From: a virus
DNA: 23,394 nt
Direction: 5' to 3' (one strand)
IMG/VR virus record: IMGVR_UViG_3300018421_000219
Location: 1 to 23,394 of that record
Shown here: positions 14,016-23,394 of the stretch, one piece after another
How positions within the stretch are numbered: position 1 is the first letter of the stretch
How the letters are laid out: the number at the start of each line of letters is the position of its first letter
Made by a program: the position numbers and the translations under genes
Notes under the pieces: model-generated
Database searches by the model: none
Told to the model about the DNA's origin: nothing
The model's input: only the letters and a program-made list of their open reading frames with translations

Positions 14016-14339
14016 TCACCAATCCCTACAAGCCATACAGCGGGGGGAATAATCACTTCTCTTACAGGACTTACAGTTATGGCGGGCATTGAAAGACTTC
14101 TTCCTCTTTGTATTTCCCTTCTTTCCTGTAACTGTAACTCCACGTTGCCCCCAATGAACGCGTTTGTAGCCTCCCTTTCCATTAGGAACGCAGGCCATCC
14201 ATTTCTTCCCCTTAGCGGTGGAGGAAGTTTTCTTAGTCCTCTTTGTGCAAGCAGCCTTGTCCACAGACTCGATATCCTCATCCTCACAGGAATTACAACC
14301 GCAGCCACAATCCTTTAGTATGGTCTTCCAATCGGACAT
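14016..14339 (-). CDS. Tagged Cys-rich protein with KSFxARHxC-type domain, 107 aa
   Basis: ATG at 14339 is set by GGAGGAAGTGAT directly before it; in-frame codons further upstream lie inside the previous gene. It begins MSDWKTILKD, one of the six W-x-x-[IL]-[IL]-K tags of this island, followed by CGCGCNSC, an acidic patch and a basic linker. The C-terminal part has GYKRVHWGQRGVTVTG, then KRKKSFNARHNCKSC, then YSPRCMACRDW. I recall a widespread small viral domain of this form (kV.fG.....RRKSF.ARH.C.......y..C..W) in marine phage and giant-virus proteins of unknown function. The paired Cys (C-x-x-C, C-x-x-C) and the His suggest a zinc-binding fold. Strong positive charge suggests nucleic-acid contact, perhaps on packaged DNA; that is inference. 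Confidence 0.8.
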   Translation of the reverse strand: MSDWKTILKDCGCGCNSCEDEDIESVDKAACTKRTKKTSSTAKGKKWMACVPNGKGGYKRVHWGQRGVTVTGKKGNTKRKKSFNARHNCKSCKRSDYSPRCMACRDW

Positions 14340-14340
14340 A

Positions 14341-15522
14341 TCACTTCCTCCCATGTTTACAATGCTGACTACAAGTAAACCCCCTTGTCTTATTGGGTCC
14401 ACTACAAACGCAATAACTCATATCTTTCTTTTTAATATTTTCAGAAATTTTTTTTCTGCGATTTAGTAGATATTCGTCGGTGGAATCTTGGTCCCCATCA
14501 TTATCAATATCCTCATCTTCTTCACCCACGGGGTCTAGTTTAAGAATGTCTTGCCACTCACCTTTCATTCCCTCATTAGTTTTCCTTTCCTCCGTTCTAT
14601 TAGGATTCTTTTCGACTTCTTTTGCAAATTGTGTTAAAATTCTTGAAAGAAGATATTGAACATATCTTGTAGCATCTCCCTCTAAATTATCAGCCTTAGC
14701 TCGTATTTCTCTTATACGAGTTCGAGCAAAACTACGAATTTGATTACCATTTAGATGAGAAACTATTCTTTCTACAAATGTAGCAAGTTCTTCTGCAATA
14801 GGAACAAGAGTAGTAAATGAAGAACCCACTATTCCTCGAATTAAGGATTGTGTCTGATTTTGAGTAAAGCCACCCGTAGTTCTAAAATTGTCTAGGGCCG
14901 TTCTAAACGGTTCTGTTACTAAATAAGCCTGTGTTTCTATAAGAATATTTGTTTTTAAATAAGTATCTAAACGTTCTACAAAATCACCTAAATAATCTCT
15001 TAAAATATTAGAAATATTATTTTGTGCTTCATTTGATAATACTCTACGTTGATTCGTTCTTTGATTTCTTCTTTGATATCCAGTAGGCCTACTTGTTACA
15101 AGATAACGTGCTTTTGGTCTATAGTTATTATTTCCAGCTGGTTCAAAATATTCCATTATAGCCGTTTCAAATTGTTTTCTATCAAATAGTATTCTTTTCC
15201 TATCTGTTAATAATTCTTCACCCATATTATGTTGAACTTGGTGAACTCCTTCGTGAATTAACATATTAATAAATGCGTCTTCCATCTCTCTTTGTCCTAC
15301 GTTAGTAGCCATTTCAGTATAAAGACCCCCCGGAATATGAGTTAAATTATCTCTAAAATTATAGGCGGCTTGCATACGATTATTTGGATTCCTAAGACGC
15401 ACATAGGCTTCCAAAAGAGGGTCAATCTGAGTTGTTCGGAATTCTGCGGGGTCTTTATCTTCTGCATCGCGGCTGTAATCGTCTTCATCGTCTTTCAACA
15501 ATTCAAACCAGTTTACCACCAT
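14341..15522 (-). CDS. Tagged zincin-type metallopeptidase candidate, 393 aa
   Basis: ATG at 15522 is chosen because TAGGTGGTGGAA precedes it and it puts the tag near the end (MVVNWFELLKDDED); GTG at 15531 is the alternative. Residues 90-98 are HEGVHQVQH, a HExxH zinc-peptidase motif preceded by a hydrophobic helix (DAFINMLI). A downstream I-L-I-E-T-Q-A-Y (E196) fits the third-ligand glutamate helix of gluzincin-type enzymes. The middle is basic (YQRRNQRTNQRR). The C-terminus adds acidic DPVGEEDEDIDNDGDQDSTD and a Cys cluster, CVCSGPNKTRGFTCSQHC, likely zinc-binding. The next gene upstream is a paralogue-like protein with a damaged motif. Possible roles are maturation of virion proteins or entry through host surface layers. 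Peptidase activity is inferred from motif only. Confidence 0.75.
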   Translation of the reverse strand: MVVNWFELLKDDEDDYSRDAEDKDPAEFRTTQIDPLLEAYVRLRNPNNRMQAAYNFRDNLTHIPGGLYTEMATNVGQREMEDAFINMLIHEGVHQVQHNMGEELLTDRKRILFDRKQFETAIMEYFEPAGNNNYRPKARYLVTSRPTGYQRRNQRTNQRRVLSNEAQNNISNILRDYLGDFVERLDTYLKTNILIETQAYLVTEPFRTALDNFRTTGGFTQNQTQSLIRGIVGSSFTTLVPIAEELATFVERIVSHLNGNQIRSFARTRIREIRAKADNLEGDATRYVQYLLSRILTQFAKEVEKNPNRTEERKTNEGMKGEWQDILKLDPVGEEDEDIDNDGDQDSTDEYLLNRRKKISENIKKKDMSYCVCSGPNKTRGFTCSQHCKHGRK

Positions 15523-15608
15523 TTCCACCACCTAATTTTAATACCACTACGGTATACCTGTTTATCAAGCACGTCACTAATATATAAATCTAACCAAGCG
15601 TCACGCAT
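15513..15608 (-). CDS. Candidate 31-aa small protein between the two zincin-like genes
   Basis: The ATG at 15608 overlaps the end of the upstream gene and is preceded by AAAGGAGGAATTAA, the best ribosome-binding site in this neighbourhood; no other start could use it. The frame stops at 15513, ten bases into the next gene. The product starts MRDAWLDLYISDVLDKQVYR and ends IKIRWWKWW. The Trp-rich end is encoded by the TGGTGG...TGG repeats that include the next gene's ribosome-binding site, so it may be a by-product of that constraint. The frame fills a gap of ~78 bases that would otherwise be the longest within the island. Function is unknown; it might also be a translational coupling leader rather than a protein with its own role. 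Confidence 0.55.
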   Translation of the reverse strand: MRDAWLDLYISDVLDKQVYRSGIKIRWWKWW

Positions 15609-16398
15609 TTAATTCCTCCTTTACACTATCCATTGTTTCTTCCATATTATTAATAACATGGTTTCTTATAAATTCTTTTAATCCGTCTATTGGAGTAGTA
15701 TCAATAGTTTCCATCGCAAAATCTCTAAATTTTCTAGTTCTATTAGGAAGGTCTTCAAATATAACATCTTCAACCATTTTATCCAAAAAAGCAATTAGTT
15801 TTGTTTTAAAATTTTCATATACAGGTAAAATATATTCTAAAATTTCAGGCGACTGTATTCTATTTATCATAGTAGGTAATAGAGCTAAATAAATATCAAG
15901 TGGACGCAAAACATATGCATCAGCCAAATTTATAATCTTTTCAGTTTTTCGTAAATTTCTAGATTCCTTAGCATGACTTTCTAATAAAATATGTTCACTA
16001 ATTTGATTAAAAAATAAATTAAAATAAGTGTTAGCAAATTCTCTTGCAAGAGTTGGAATAAGGTTTTCATTCCCTCTAAGTTTTGCTTGAGCTATGGGAA
16101 GTAAATAATCATCCGACAAGGAATTAAGATTTGCGTTAAAATTTCTATTAAATTCTCGATAGTCCGGGTCTAACCTACCCACTACATCTTGAGCGTGATG
16201 GGTTGTTTCTTCTGCAATAGTTTGAGCAATTTCTTCAGGTGTATCGTCACCTACACTAAATGCATATTCTCCCGTTTGTGAATTATATAACGCTGCTGTT
16301 CTATCATCCCCCGTGGGTCTAAGAAAATCTCTAGCCGTTGGGGACAAGGGTTCATCAGCGGGTCTGAAGGTAGCCTTAAGAATATCAATCCAATTCAT
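15601..16398 (-). CDS. Tagged zincin-like protein with degenerate active site, 265 aa
   Basis: ATG at 16398 follows GAGGGGTGGAATT and places the tag first (MNWIDILKATF); GTG at 16419 is less likely. Residues 62-70 read AEETTHHAQ where its neighbour has IHEGVHQVQ, so the first metal His of HExxH is replaced by Glu. The later HILLESHAKE (E140) matches the neighbour's NILIETQAYL. Both proteins also have a 'Y....vg' beta turn just before the motif helix. The rest is helical and AT-rich in codon use (YFNLFFNQISEHILLE, LDIYLALLPTMINRI, VYENFKTKLIAFLDKMV). I read it as a diverged paralogue that is catalytically weak or inactive, perhaps structural or inhibitory. A different metal set (E, H, H, E) cannot be excluded. 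Confidence 0.72.
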   Translation of the reverse strand: MNWIDILKATFRPADEPLSPTARDFLRPTGDDRTAALYNSQTGEYAFSVGDDTPEEIAQTIAEETTHHAQDVVGRLDPDYREFNRNFNANLNSLSDDYLLPIAQAKLRGNENLIPTLAREFANTYFNLFFNQISEHILLESHAKESRNLRKTEKIINLADAYVLRPLDIYLALLPTMINRIQSPEILEYILPVYENFKTKLIAFLDKMVEDVIFEDLPNRTRKFRDFAMETIDTTPIDGLKEFIRNHVINNMEETMDSVKEELNA

Positions 16399-17014
16399 AA
16401 TTCCACCCCTCAGAATCACCTAGCGATACCGCATCTTCCAATGATAATCTATGGTAATCTTCTTTATAAACCTTTAGCCAATTGGGGGAGTCCAATTCTT
16501 CAGGAGATAAACTCGAATCTCTTATGATTAACTTATTATTAGGACCACTACACAAAGAGCCTGTGCGCTCATCAAAGAAAAATGTCTTGGTCTTATGTTC
16601 ATTCCATTTTGTAGCTAAACCATAATCAACCATTGGTTCAGGAAGTGGGTCACATGTGAATAAATACGTTCCCTTCATCATCTCCCCCTTTCTATTCTTC
16701 ATCTCAATAGTGCAATACCTAAGACCTTCAATTTGAATTATTTGCCAATTATCCGATATAGAATCCCACCACCCTACGTCATGCATGGTAACCATATGTG
16801 TAGGGTCGGGCTTTAAAAAAATAGCACATTGGTCTACCTTGTCGTATAAGGCCCCAATAGAGGGAAGGTAAACAACAAATAGTGGGGCACGACCACGAAT
16901 AAATCTAATAGCCTTAATTACACCAAAGATAGTTTTATCCCTTGTGTATTTTGGCTCACCTGATAGAAACGAGGTTTTTACATAACACTCGATATAGGGG
17001 GTAGAAACTAACAT
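16385..17014 (-). CDS. Unknown protein in the tagged island, 209 aa (no tag)
   Basis: ATG at 17014 follows TTAGGTGAATTTCT; the end overlaps the next start by 14 bases. It lacks the W-x-x-[IL]-[IL]-K tag of its neighbours. The N-terminal half is compact and beta-rich (TPYIECYVKTSFLSGEPKY, then TIFGVIKAIRFIRGRAPLFV, then PSIGALYDKVDQCAIFLKP). The middle has WWDSISDNWQIIQIEGLRYC, MMKGTYLFTCDPLP and FFFDERTGSLCSGPNNKLII; the C-terminus is acidic (LEDAVSLGDSEGWNYELD). I recall similar 'rGrp.lfe.ylp..GalyDkLp..af' sequences among uncultured marine virus proteins, without a known role. No catalytic motif, signal peptide or membrane segment is evident. Confidence 0.8.
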   Translation of the reverse strand: MLVSTPYIECYVKTSFLSGEPKYTRDKTIFGVIKAIRFIRGRAPLFVVYLPSIGALYDKVDQCAIFLKPDPTHMVTMHDVGWWDSISDNWQIIQIEGLRYCTIEMKNRKGEMMKGTYLFTCDPLPEPMVDYGLATKWNEHKTKTFFFDERTGSLCSGPNNKLIIRDSSLSPEELDSPNWLKVYKEDYHRLSLEDAVSLGDSEGWNYELD

Positions 17015-17024
17015 AGAAATTCAC

Positions 17025-17267
17025 CTAACCCCTCCTTTCAAACCAACCGTGAAGACCCTTCTCTTCCTCCCTATCGAATGTCCCCGCTTTACGCTTCTTA
17101 GGTTTCCCACCTCTTCTTTTGTAATCTTTACAAGCAGAACAGGTCGGCCTACACCTTCTCTTTCTTCCCTTAGATGCATCTTTACGACCACAGGGACGAC
17201 GTTTTTTTCCTTTACCACAAGAAGAACAATCTACCCAATCCTTTAGTAGAATGTCCTCCCAACTCAT
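17025..17267 (-). CDS. Tagged basic Cys-rich zinc-ribbon-like protein, 80 aa
   Basis: The ATG overlaps the previous stop by four bases (ATGA) and is preceded by AGAGGGGGCTACTGC. It starts MSWEDILLKDW, the clearest form of the island's tag. It continues with CSSCGKGKKRRPCGRK and CRPTCSACKDYKRRGGK: two C-x-x-C pairs plus single Cys residues in a very Lys/Arg-rich context. The element PTCSACKDY mirrors PRCMACRDW at the end of the 107-aa tagged protein, pointing to a shared zinc-binding tail piece. High charge and zinc-knuckle spacing suggest nucleic-acid binding (inference). A competing frame on the same strand (17218-17021) is a shadow without tag or ribosome-binding site. Confidence 0.8.
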   Translation of the reverse strand: MSWEDILLKDWVDCSSCGKGKKRRPCGRKDASKGRKRRCRPTCSACKDYKRRGGKPKKRKAGTFDREEEKGLHGWFERRG

Positions 17268-17476
17268 GCAGTAGCCCCCTCTTCACGGAGGAACTGAACC
17301 ATATAATCTAAAAAGTTAATAGCCTTATCAATACGACCGGCTACTATTTCTTCCCTTAGGGCTAAAAGGTGGTGAAGTTGTTGATTCATAAACTCTACCA
17401 TTTCTGTTTCATCTTCATCAAAGTCAGGATTACCTAAACCTTCAGGTCTGTTTTTAATAATATCTTCCCAAGTCAT
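17264..17476 (-). CDS. Tagged short acidic helical protein, 70 aa
   Basis: ATG at 17476 is chosen because TTGGGGGAAGAAGAA precedes it and it overlaps the previous stop by four bases (ATGA). The protein opens with the tag MTWEDIIKNRPEGLG, then an acidic linker (NPDFDEDETEM) and a long amphipathic helical region (VEFMNQQLHHLLALREEIV, then AGRIDKAINFLDYMVQFLRE). No Cys or known catalytic motif is present. It sits between the 54-aa and 80-aa tagged proteins in a chain of four-base overlaps, so all three are probably translated together. The helical part could dimerise. Function unknown. Confidence 0.78.
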   Translation of the reverse strand: MTWEDIIKNRPEGLGNPDFDEDETEMVEFMNQQLHHLLALREEIVAGRIDKAINFLDYMVQFLREEGATA

Positions 17477-17637
17477 TTCTTCTTCCCCCAATTCTTAGCA
17501 CCTACCTTTCTACATTGAACTAATGCACCTGAAGCATAAGCGGAGGGCCACTTTTTATACCTACTCTTAACTTTGTAATAGCAGGCATCACGCTTTACTT
17601 TTTTCTTAGCCTTAAGCGTTTCCCACCATTCTTCCAT
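17473..17637 (-). CDS. Tagged 54-aa SAYAS-type protein
   Basis: Found by reading the gap between the connector and the 70-aa gene. ATG at 17637 follows ACTGAGGTGTTAAT, a good ribosome-binding site, and the stop overlaps the next ATG by four bases (ATGA). The N-terminus MEEWWETLKAKKK is a variant of the island's tag. The rest carries a compact motif, ACYYKVKSRYKKWPSAYASG followed by ALVQCRKVGAKNWGKKK, with two Cys 24 residues apart. I recall this Y-K-V-K-x-R-Y...PSAYASGALVxCRKVGAxNWG element as common in short proteins of tailed phages and giant viruses with no known role. It is strongly basic. Here it shows the tag fused to a widespread viral peptide family. Confidence 0.85.
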   Translation of the reverse strand: MEEWWETLKAKKKVKRDACYYKVKSRYKKWPSAYASGALVQCRKVGAKNWGKKK

Positions 17638-21870: not shown

Positions 21871-23118
21871 TCACTCCAAGTCAATAATCTTGCCCTGTCC
21901 ACGGAAATAGGTGCACATTGTTTCTGCAACAGTTCGATAAAGACCCTTGTGACCGAGTTTGCCATGACCGAATACATCGGCGTTAATACCACCCTCGAAA
22001 TACTCAGTGGGCTTTAGTGTGCAAAGGAACAAGTGGTCGGTGTCTAGAATTAACATATCGCTTAGACCTGCACCACCATTCGGCATATCCTTTACGGGGA
22101 TAATCGGAATGTCGTGGTATGTAGCAACACGGAAACCTACTTCACGGCCTGCAACGCCCTTAATACCCGAATGGGTTGGGACGATTTCACTGCGACCCAT
22201 GAAACGCTCTTGGGCTTGTAGTAACTCACCAAGAGTTTGAATGGTGTCGTAGCCGGTTAGAATAACCTTGGGGTCACCACCGCGAGCCATCAATTGACGG
22301 AGAGCGGTGTTTAGTAGGTTAACAGTTAGAGCACGGTCTGTGCCGTTGTTTAGGTCAACGTAAGATTCTAGGTGGTCGGCACTGGATGAAGCGCGGGTAG
22401 CACCGAAGAGGTCTAAACCATTTGCAACACTGCTAGCATTCAATTCAGCGTAGTTAGAAACAATTTGGTAAAGCGAAGTTAGATTTCTTTCGCGCTCGGC
22501 CTCAGTAAAACCGGAAGCCGCTAGACCTTCACCTGCGGTGCTTGTTAAGTCAAGAAGAACCATCTTGTTCATAACTTCAGCGTGAGTAATACCGACTTCT
22601 TCACGATAGTTTTGCATAATGTCGCCAATGCCGTCGTCAAGACCACCCATTAACTGAGCAATCTCAGAAACTTCGAAAGTGTGAGCGATGGTCTTAGGCG
22701 AAATGCTAAGAACATCGTAAACAGGTCGAATGTCTGTAAAGCTACTAAGGGCGGCGTTCTCAGCCGTTCCACCAAGAGTAGCGGAATCAGAAACAGTCAT
22801 TAAGTCTGTTCCACCACCAAGGGCGCGTTCCTTTAGGATTCTCCAACCGGAGGACTTCCAAGGCTTCTTAGGAAGCATGGAAAGTGCGTTAATCTCACGG
22901 TTAATCATGGACCAAACCTTCTGCCCGTATACAAGGTTGTATAGGGAAGTGGTTACGCCTAAGGCGTGTCCTGTTCCACTTACTAAGTCAATAGCACCAT
23001 CATGGTGACTACCACTAATGCCTGATAGTGCGCCTGTCGCCTTAAGAAGACGGTCACCACCAAAGGAACCATATGTCGCTCGTTCTAAATCTGCAATTGT
23101 CTTATAATATCCACTCAT
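21871..23118 (-). CDS. Major capsid protein, HK97-fold type, 415 aa
   Basis: ATG at 23118 follows ACAGGAGATGATTTAA. After a ~60-residue arm come SLYNLVYGQKVWSMINREIN and ALSMLPKKPWKSSGWRI, the usual entry of HK97-type capsid proteins, in which a helix leads into the first core strands. Then GGTAENAALSSFTDIRPVYD and DVLSISPKTIAHTFEVSEIA fit the E-loop and following P-domain strands, and EVGITHAEVMNKMVLLDLTS the long spine helix. The A-domain part includes LRQLMARGGDPKVILTGYDT and HDIPIIPVKDMPNGG...MLILDTDHLFLC, a typical 'd.piipv.dmp.....ilildt.hl' ending. The preceding coiled-coil gene and downstream head genes support it. The length of 415 residues is normal for the family. Whether the N-terminal arm is cleaved cannot be seen. 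Confidence 0.92.
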   Translation of the reverse strand: MSGYYKTIADLERATYGSFGGDRLLKATGALSGISGSHHDGAIDLVSGTGHALGVTTSLYNLVYGQKVWSMINREINALSMLPKKPWKSSGWRILKERALGGGTDLMTVSDSATLGGTAENAALSSFTDIRPVYDVLSISPKTIAHTFEVSEIAQLMGGLDDGIGDIMQNYREEVGITHAEVMNKMVLLDLTSTAGEGLAASGFTEAERERNLTSLYQIVSNYAELNASSVANGLDLFGATRASSSADHLESYVDLNNGTDRALTVNLLNTALRQLMARGGDPKVILTGYDTIQTLGELLQAQERFMGRSEIVPTHSGIKGVAGREVGFRVATYHDIPIIPVKDMPNGGAGLSDMLILDTDHLFLCTLKPTEYFEGGINADVFGHGKLGHKGLYRTVAETMCTYFRGQGKIIDLE

Positions 23119-23123
23119 TTAAA

Positions 23124-23394
23124 TCATCTCCTGTTGTAACGAGCCATTAACTCGTGTGCTTCGCTCCACGACATTTCTGCAACGCGGGAAAAGTCTTCGT
23201 CAATCTGAGCCTGTTGTGTTTCAACAGACTTTGCGATGGTTGCATCGCCTTCCTCAAGGGACTTGCGGAGAGCGTTAAACTCATCCTTAAGAGCCATAAC
23301 TGCCTCAGCAGCGTCAAACTCTTCCTTAGCAATACGGGCTTTCTCAGCCTCTAACTCAGCCATATAGCGAGCCTCGAATTGAGCCTTGACTAAA
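23124..23394 (-). CDS. Scaffold/protease-type coiled-coil protein, C-terminal part (5' end outside window)
   Basis: The frame is open to the right edge, giving 89 visible residues; the ATG at 23363 is probably internal, since the reading continues upstream (LVKAQFEARYMAELEAEKA). The visible part is a long charged coiled coil (FDAAEAVMALKDEFNALRKS, then IAKSVETQQAQIDEDFSRVA) ending EMSWSEAHELMARYNRR. It stops six bases before the capsid gene. A helical scaffold domain just upstream of the capsid gene, either free or fused behind a prohead protease, is the standard layout of HK97-type modules. The short C-terminal helix after a charged coiled coil is often the part that contacts the capsid protein. 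The protease portion, if present, is outside the window. Confidence 0.7.
   Translation of the reverse strand, partial: LVKAQFEARYMAELEAEKARIAKEEFDAAEAVMALKDEFNALRKSLEEGDATIAKSVETQQAQIDEDFSRVAEMSWSEAHELMARYNRR

Follow-up and report, generated by a model that had tools for sequence, protein, structure and literature searches.

Why should neighboring genes of one virus, encoding proteins with unrelated bodies, begin with the same handful of residues? The question is raised by a 23.4 kb virus record, analyzed here over its whole length of 23,394 nucleotides and called the window, in which six genes, all on the minus strand, were described in an initial annotation as sharing the N-terminal tag W-x-x-[IL]-[IL]-K. 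The tag was proposed to be a capsid-targeting or scaffold-binding sequence that loads accessory proteins into the virion.

Several viral systems provide a background to this proposal. Herpesviruses (UL26/UL26.5) possess a protease fused to a scaffold with a capsid-binding C-terminus, and the protease of phage HK97 is of the same S78 type as that encoded beside the tagged genes. The N-terminal sequence MKTYQEFIAE of phage T4 targets cargo to the prohead core and is then removed by the prohead protease (PMC10229621). The first 30 residues of P1 DarB direct a reporter into the head (PMC9024508); this signal is not known to contain a W motif, and there are only six Dar proteins. Here, we describe a computational analysis of the tag in the window and in related contigs of uncultured viruses.

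Organization of the tag block

Along the minus strand of the window, the end of a scaffold gene is followed by the capsid protein gene, small head genes, two larger head or connector genes, and the tag block (17637 to 14016), which holds the six tagged genes and one untagged gene. Apparent neck and tail genes lie downstream. The features are as follows.

23124..23393, minus strand: C-terminal part of an S78 prohead protease-scaffold fusion that runs off the window; homology to 94 fusions; anchor MSWSEAHEL at 23148-23174
21871..23118, minus strand: major capsid protein (PHROG 24667, 3e-31; Pfam SU10_MCP, 1.1e-9); candidate processing site LLK/A at 23041-23049
17473..17637, minus strand: tagged gene 1, 54 aa, SAYAS body (PHROG 727, 6.5e-18); imperfect tag WWETLK at 17611-17628
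17264..17476, minus strand: tagged gene 2, 70 aa, acidic body; tag WEDIIK at 17453-17470
17025..17267, minus strand: tagged gene 3, 80 aa, Cys-rich zinc-ribbon-like body; tag WEDILLK, with one extra L, at 17241-17261
15601..16398, minus strand: tagged gene 4, 265 aa, EExxH replacing HExxH; tag WIDILK at 16375-16392
14341..15522, minus strand: tagged gene 5, 393 aa, HExxH (LIHEGVHQVQH); N-terminal tag WFELLK at 15493-15510
14539..14556, minus strand: internal second tag WQDILK of gene 5, preceding an EF-hand-like module; PHROG 764, 4359 and 38880 matches lie within residues 290-370
14016..14339, minus strand: tagged gene 6, 107 aa, DUF5754-like body (Pfam PF19058, 1.9e-6); tag WKTILK at 14313-14330

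All six N-termini of the initial annotation are in place, and four of them (MTWEDIIK, MNWIDILK, MVVNWFELLK and MSDWKTILK) fit the strict pattern; the remaining two are only near variants, MEEWWETLK having T at the first [IL] position and MSWEDILLK an extra L ahead of K. The further claim that each tag start has a good ribosome-binding site holds, by the presence of a Shine-Dalgarno sequence, for at least five of the six genes, but for MTWEDIIK the gene caller chose a TTG five codons upstream. The sole untagged gene of the block (16385-17014, minus strand) has a match to PHROG 3704 (1.2e-26), a family labelled ferredoxin, that covers almost the entire gene.

The internal tag of gene 5, GEWQDILK, has its W at residue 323 and is the seventh tag copy in the window. 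Because it precedes a module that is a separate, stand-alone tagged gene in a relative (L006, MWWDIIKNLDPVGEEDEDIDNDGD), the 393-aa gene looks like a fusion of two tagged genes. The zinc-ribbon module of the window is likewise found behind an internal SWEDVLYK in a tagged fusion of SAYAS and a PAP2-type phosphatase (L095:9914-10957). SAYAS proteins of the lineage bearing W tags nearly all begin with the tag or a close variant, such as LWFEELK.

Enrichment and genomic distribution of the tag

Related contigs were fetched from IMG/VR by means of the capsid protein, the SAYAS protein and the protease-scaffold, and genes were called by a script that uses codon usage and ribosome sites and is blind to the tag. 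In 35 capsid-related loci, 58 of 381 distinct proteins have a strict tag that begins within their first ten residues, approximately 200 times its rate in protein bodies; in this set, no match was obtained with reversed, acidic or serine versions of the pattern, and F and Y versions gave 0 to 2. Over all loci, 221 of 2391 distinct N-termini bear the strict tag, whereas 200 shuffled rounds gave 1.47 on average and never more than 5. A lack of enrichment over shuffled N-termini in related genomes had been named in advance as grounds for refutation; with enrichment exceeding 100-fold, that refutation failed.

Seventeen of the 32 genes are tagged in the densest locus, and the tagged set varies greatly among relatives. 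The tags are confined to one late block: in four contigs of 87-98 kb, all 32 strict tags fall within a single stretch of each contig, near terminase and capsid genes, and none of the 32 is on a replication gene of these contigs. In one of the four, the stretch runs round the contig ends.

Scaffold and coil proteins end in the core of the tag

The gene directly upstream of the capsid gene encodes a fusion of an S78 prohead protease with a coiled-coil scaffold, as seen in a full-length homologue (Pfam, 7.8e-12). An S78 domain in this position together with a coiled-coil part identifies a scaffold of the HK97 kind, and a low-confidence model contains the helices. All 94 non-identical protease-scaffold fusions end in [MLI]-x-W-x-[DEQ]-[ILVA], the W lying 10 to 14 residues before the C-terminus, where little else is conserved. 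The same ending is present in every member (67/67) of a family of small coiled-coil proteins encoded between the portal and the protease, and in the same genomes the scaffold profile gives a second, weak match to the end of this coil gene. Among 1938 non-identical proteins, M[STNDE]W.[DENQ][ILVA] occurs at the N-terminus in 112 cases, in the last 30 residues in 83, and elsewhere in 2; all but one of the 83 C-terminal cases belong to the scaffold or coil families.

The core of the tag, M-x-W-x-[DE]-[IL], is common to the C-terminal anchors of both scaffold-type proteins. Since the Met of the tag is the start codon, only W, the acidic residue at +2 and I/L at +3 count as independent matches, and the L at +4 and K at +5 of the tag are absent from the scaffold anchor. 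AlphaFold models of the scaffold and of one cargo protein place the W motif at the start of a terminal helix, with low confidence (scaffold mean pLDDT 47.5). A contig of 184,733 bp (G057, IMGVR_UViG_3300021958_000021) has two different scaffold-protease genes and two coil genes; at about twice the usual genome size, it perhaps represents two joined genomes.

The close likeness of the tag to the C-terminal end of the scaffold leads us to conclude that it most likely loads proteins into the growing head, and we consider it probable that the tag is a capsid-targeting sequence that copies the scaffold anchor and brings cargo into the procapsid. The suggestion of a scaffold-binding tag is sharpened accordingly: the tag seems to reproduce the anchor of the scaffold itself and not merely to be a peptide that binds the scaffold.

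Parallels with virion proteins of other phages

The tag has one hallmark of a T4-like targeting sequence, in that it is a short N-terminal motif common to unrelated proteins of one virus. Like the tag, the T4 sequence occupies approximately 10 N-terminal residues on several unrelated proteins and follows the order aromatic-x-acidic-hydrophobic-hydrophobic. The two differ in sequence (W and ILK in the tag) and in protease, which is gp21 in T4 and of the S78 (HK97) type here; moreover, the tag is found on many more cargo families, and its core is common with the scaffold C-terminus. In the loci bearing W tags, the T4-type consensus MKxxxEF[IL]xE is found at 1 N-terminus against 1.03 by chance. 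The tag thus appears analogous to the T4 sequence in how it would work, without being a member of it by sequence.

Certain cargo modules also occur in cyanophage genes that stand among T4-like-tagged genes, and one matches a PHROG family named for a cyanophage virion protein. The C-terminal module of gene 5 (DIDNDGDQDSTDEYLLNRRK) occurs together with SAYAS in gene 156 of cyanophage P-SSM4, whose neighbors begin MKKFSAFLKEA, MLSFKSFNQL and MLSFKAYLAE. The window module matches PHROG 764, annotated as cytidyltransferase, and the cyanophage cytidyltransferase cluster T4-GC190, which in P-SSM4 begins MKKFSAFLKEA, has been detected in purified S-SM1 virions (PMC3037559). S-CREM2 gp136, which starts MQTFSMFFSED, has also been detected in virions (PMC10665884). 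Its neighbor in number, gp137, was considered as a SAYAS protein and rejected, as its sequence contains no SAYAS.

Entry of the tagged proteins into virions is an inference, and we know of no virion proteomics for these viruses. The tagged proteins could instead be assembly helpers (extra scaffolds, chaperones or size factors) that are lost before maturation and never become virion cargo. The motif is common with scaffolds, which normally leave, and most of the bodies have no match to a known enzyme family. A tagged set that is so large in the densest locus and so variable among relatives is, however, unlike conserved assembly factors, and the match of the gene 5 module to a cytidyltransferase family, given that the cyanophage cytidyltransferase cluster is a virion protein in S-SM1, also speaks against helpers, an explanation that we regard as unlikely.

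A candidate release site

Of 161 non-redundant tags, in which W is invariant by construction, 150 have I at +3, 128 have L at +4 and 156 have K at +5; D, N or E predominates at +2, and conservation drops sharply right past the K. The N-terminal arm of the capsid protein, which is short and varies in length, ends in LLK or similar (LLK/[ASQG]) in 72 of 73 homologues, and 66 of 67 coil proteins contain LMK[SA]G or a sequence like it. Two hydrophobic residues followed by K are not rare, being expected at 16% per random 32 residues. The HK97 capsid protein is cut at K103/S104 (PMC10275583). An S78 protease encoded beside the tags, the K at +5 and these LLK and LMK sites in head proteins raise the possibility that the prohead protease cleaves cargo after ILK, an inference made without cleavage data that we place slightly short of an even chance.

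The same observations might be taken to mean that the entire tag is a docking, recognition or degradation signal for the prohead protease and is no capsid address. The near-invariant K with its abrupt boundary, and the similar sites in the capsid and coil proteins, would be accounted for. The scaffold and coil anchors, however, have the W, the acidic residue and the I but no K, so that W and K seem to do separate jobs, and the substrates of a protease locked in the procapsid would still need to be brought in. We therefore hold this explanation to be very improbable.

The tag is a modular peptide signal

BLAST divides the bodies of the 192 non-identical tagged proteins in the first set into 94 families, an upper bound given that remote relatives are split by this method. 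The bodies had been called unrelated, and they include distinct SAYAS, DUF5754, PAP2, HExxH, EF-hand and zinc-ribbon types, in agreement with that description. When 99 tagged proteins covering the 192-protein set are aligned, only MxWxxILK is left conserved. Pfam, PHROGs and NCBIfam name few of the bodies (PAP2, DUF5754, EF-hand and SAYAS). The tag is also movable: in one family it remains N-terminal on the same body with either 2 or about 60 residues inserted between them, its W ranges from residue 2 to 12, and further copies stand between domains or, in two proteins, form the very C-terminal end.

Descent from one old gene family, diverged beyond recognition except at the N-terminus, would be consistent with the tandem paralogues that are alike beyond the tag, namely the MNWFTLLKQPKLRT-type genes in G084 and the RQKLR-PLPDDD genes in L095. 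It is contradicted by the distinct, recognizable bodies, by modules inserted between tag and body, by the internal and C-terminal copies, and by the presence of the core in unrelated scaffold proteins; little credence remains for it, and even were it correct, the tag would still be the part conserved for function.

At the nucleotide level, 134 different 18-nt words encode the 161 tags, and synonymous codons are used broadly as in the bodies. Because the codons vary freely, the tag acts at the protein level, as a peptide signal. A nucleic-acid signal at the gene start (for translation or recombination) that incidentally encodes MxWxxILK, although in keeping with the position of most tags right at the start codon, is refuted as the main cause by this codon diversity, by the varying position of W and by the recurrence of the motif at scaffold C-termini, with two folded start regions having given nothing notable, and can be given practically no weight.

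Other features of the tagged proteins were noted. Tandem paralogues at G084:C1:5200-12000 (QPKLRT) and L095:4083-8219 (RQKLR-PLPDDDD) have a second element after the tag and then diverge. An RGAFTDRD-like C-terminal ending is present on tagged proteins of at least two families (in L015, L020, L023, L025, L042, L069, L080 and L086); as a second general C-terminal motif it was rejected, since it belongs mostly to one family. A resemblance of two bodies (L095:11275-11994 and L002:8712-9305) to ADP-ribosyltransferases was guessed by eye only and was not retained, Pfam giving no match and a scan finding a homologue only in the query's own contig.

Linkage of the tag to one capsid lineage

Among contigs found through the SAYAS protein, the capsid family is encoded in 18 of 19 with W tags and in 0 of 31 without them (Fisher p 1e-12). 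A codon scan of all IMG/VR for M[S/T..]WEDILK, with no other seed, yielded 116 stretches, and the scaffold is encoded in 39 of the 50 contigs tested. Four long contigs lack it: three have the usual tag block but a break at the head module, and the fourth has only one match, probably by chance. The remaining seven without a scaffold are fragments (6 to 45 kb). The tag goes with a single capsid and scaffold lineage, although mere shared descent would give the same linkage.

The 51 SAYAS loci without W tags have a different motif, M[KR]xxD[IF][IL]xE, in 16 proteins against 0.46 by chance (for example in L066, L100, L103 and L104), whereas in the W loci it is at chance level. It resembles MKTYQEFIAEA of T4 (ipII, ipIII) and, judged by sequence, is likely another lineage's capsid-targeting tag. 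This split between SAYAS loci implies that one cargo module can be joined to different N-terminal motifs, depending on the head lineage. The earlier capsid-targeting proposal is supported by the scaffold and coil endings, by the linkage to one lineage and by the cyanophage module parallels, with virion entry still unproven.

Relatives and hosts of the tag-bearing viruses

The capsid protein of the window is assigned to the HK97 type by profile matches to SU10-type and PHROG head-protein families, and its nearest isolates are haloarchaeal viruses such as HCTV-1 (29% identity). HCTV-1 itself was rejected as a tag-bearing isolate, as none of the 22 of its proteins that were inspected has a tag and its presumed protease-scaffold has no W anchor. 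One tag-bearing contig encodes a small subunit of archaeal-type RFC (2.8e-71). It also encodes a B-family polymerase; among the relatives of this enzyme, the polymerases of haloarchaeal viruses are the best covered, and vibriophage polymerases come next. Poseidoniales virus P01 (Satyavativiridae, Adrikavirales) has a genome of 87 kb, a prohead protease and a capsid protein near Druskaviridae in phylogeny (PMC13108676). The tag-bearing contigs resemble P01 in size (87 kb range), prohead protease and capsid relation. The RFC, polymerase and capsid relation fit Satyavativiridae-like viruses of Poseidoniales, an assignment made without comparison with the P01 genome (PP497040), and the tag-bearing lineage, one of tailed marine viruses, probably infects archaea.

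Matches in genome bins of Maricaulis, Altibacter and Thioglobus look like contamination and were rejected as evidence of bacterial hosts. Four contigs of the Maricaulis sp. IN14 MAG (L231-L234) have different protease-scaffold relatives in this one bacterial bin, and binning errors are therefore likely.

Discussion

The following mechanism is proposed. M-x-W-x-[DE]-I would start a short amphipathic helix copying the C-terminal anchor helix of the scaffold; in HK97 and P22, a scaffold helix lies beneath the capsomer, to which the W anchor may be compared. During head assembly, the tag would dock cargo at the same procapsid-interior receptor as the scaffold anchor, the likeliest candidate being the inner face of the major capsid protein, and the final ILK would probably be an S78 site at which cargo is released as the head matures. 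The shared receptor and the binding are inferred, as are cleavage after K and delivery to the host.

We know of no case in which a scaffold anchor motif is carried by dozens of cargo proteins. No earlier report of the tag was found in the literature searched, and typical tag strings are absent from the paper texts searched, which shows only that main texts omit them.

The fuller model is a two-part address code, consisting of a scaffold-derived W-helix and a protease release site, by which eight codons would make any gene head cargo and a fast-changing set of one to two dozen proteins would be delivered into a probably archaeal host; we consider it about evenly balanced between right and wrong. 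If right, a general method would follow, the search for N-terminal motifs common to unrelated genes of one virus. The tag would suggest that targeting tags can originate by copying a scaffold anchor, and it would provide a portable loading peptide. For an entire lineage of uncultured marine viruses, a text search would then list the head cargo, and up to about 17 orphan genes per 20 kb would become predicted virion or injected proteins.
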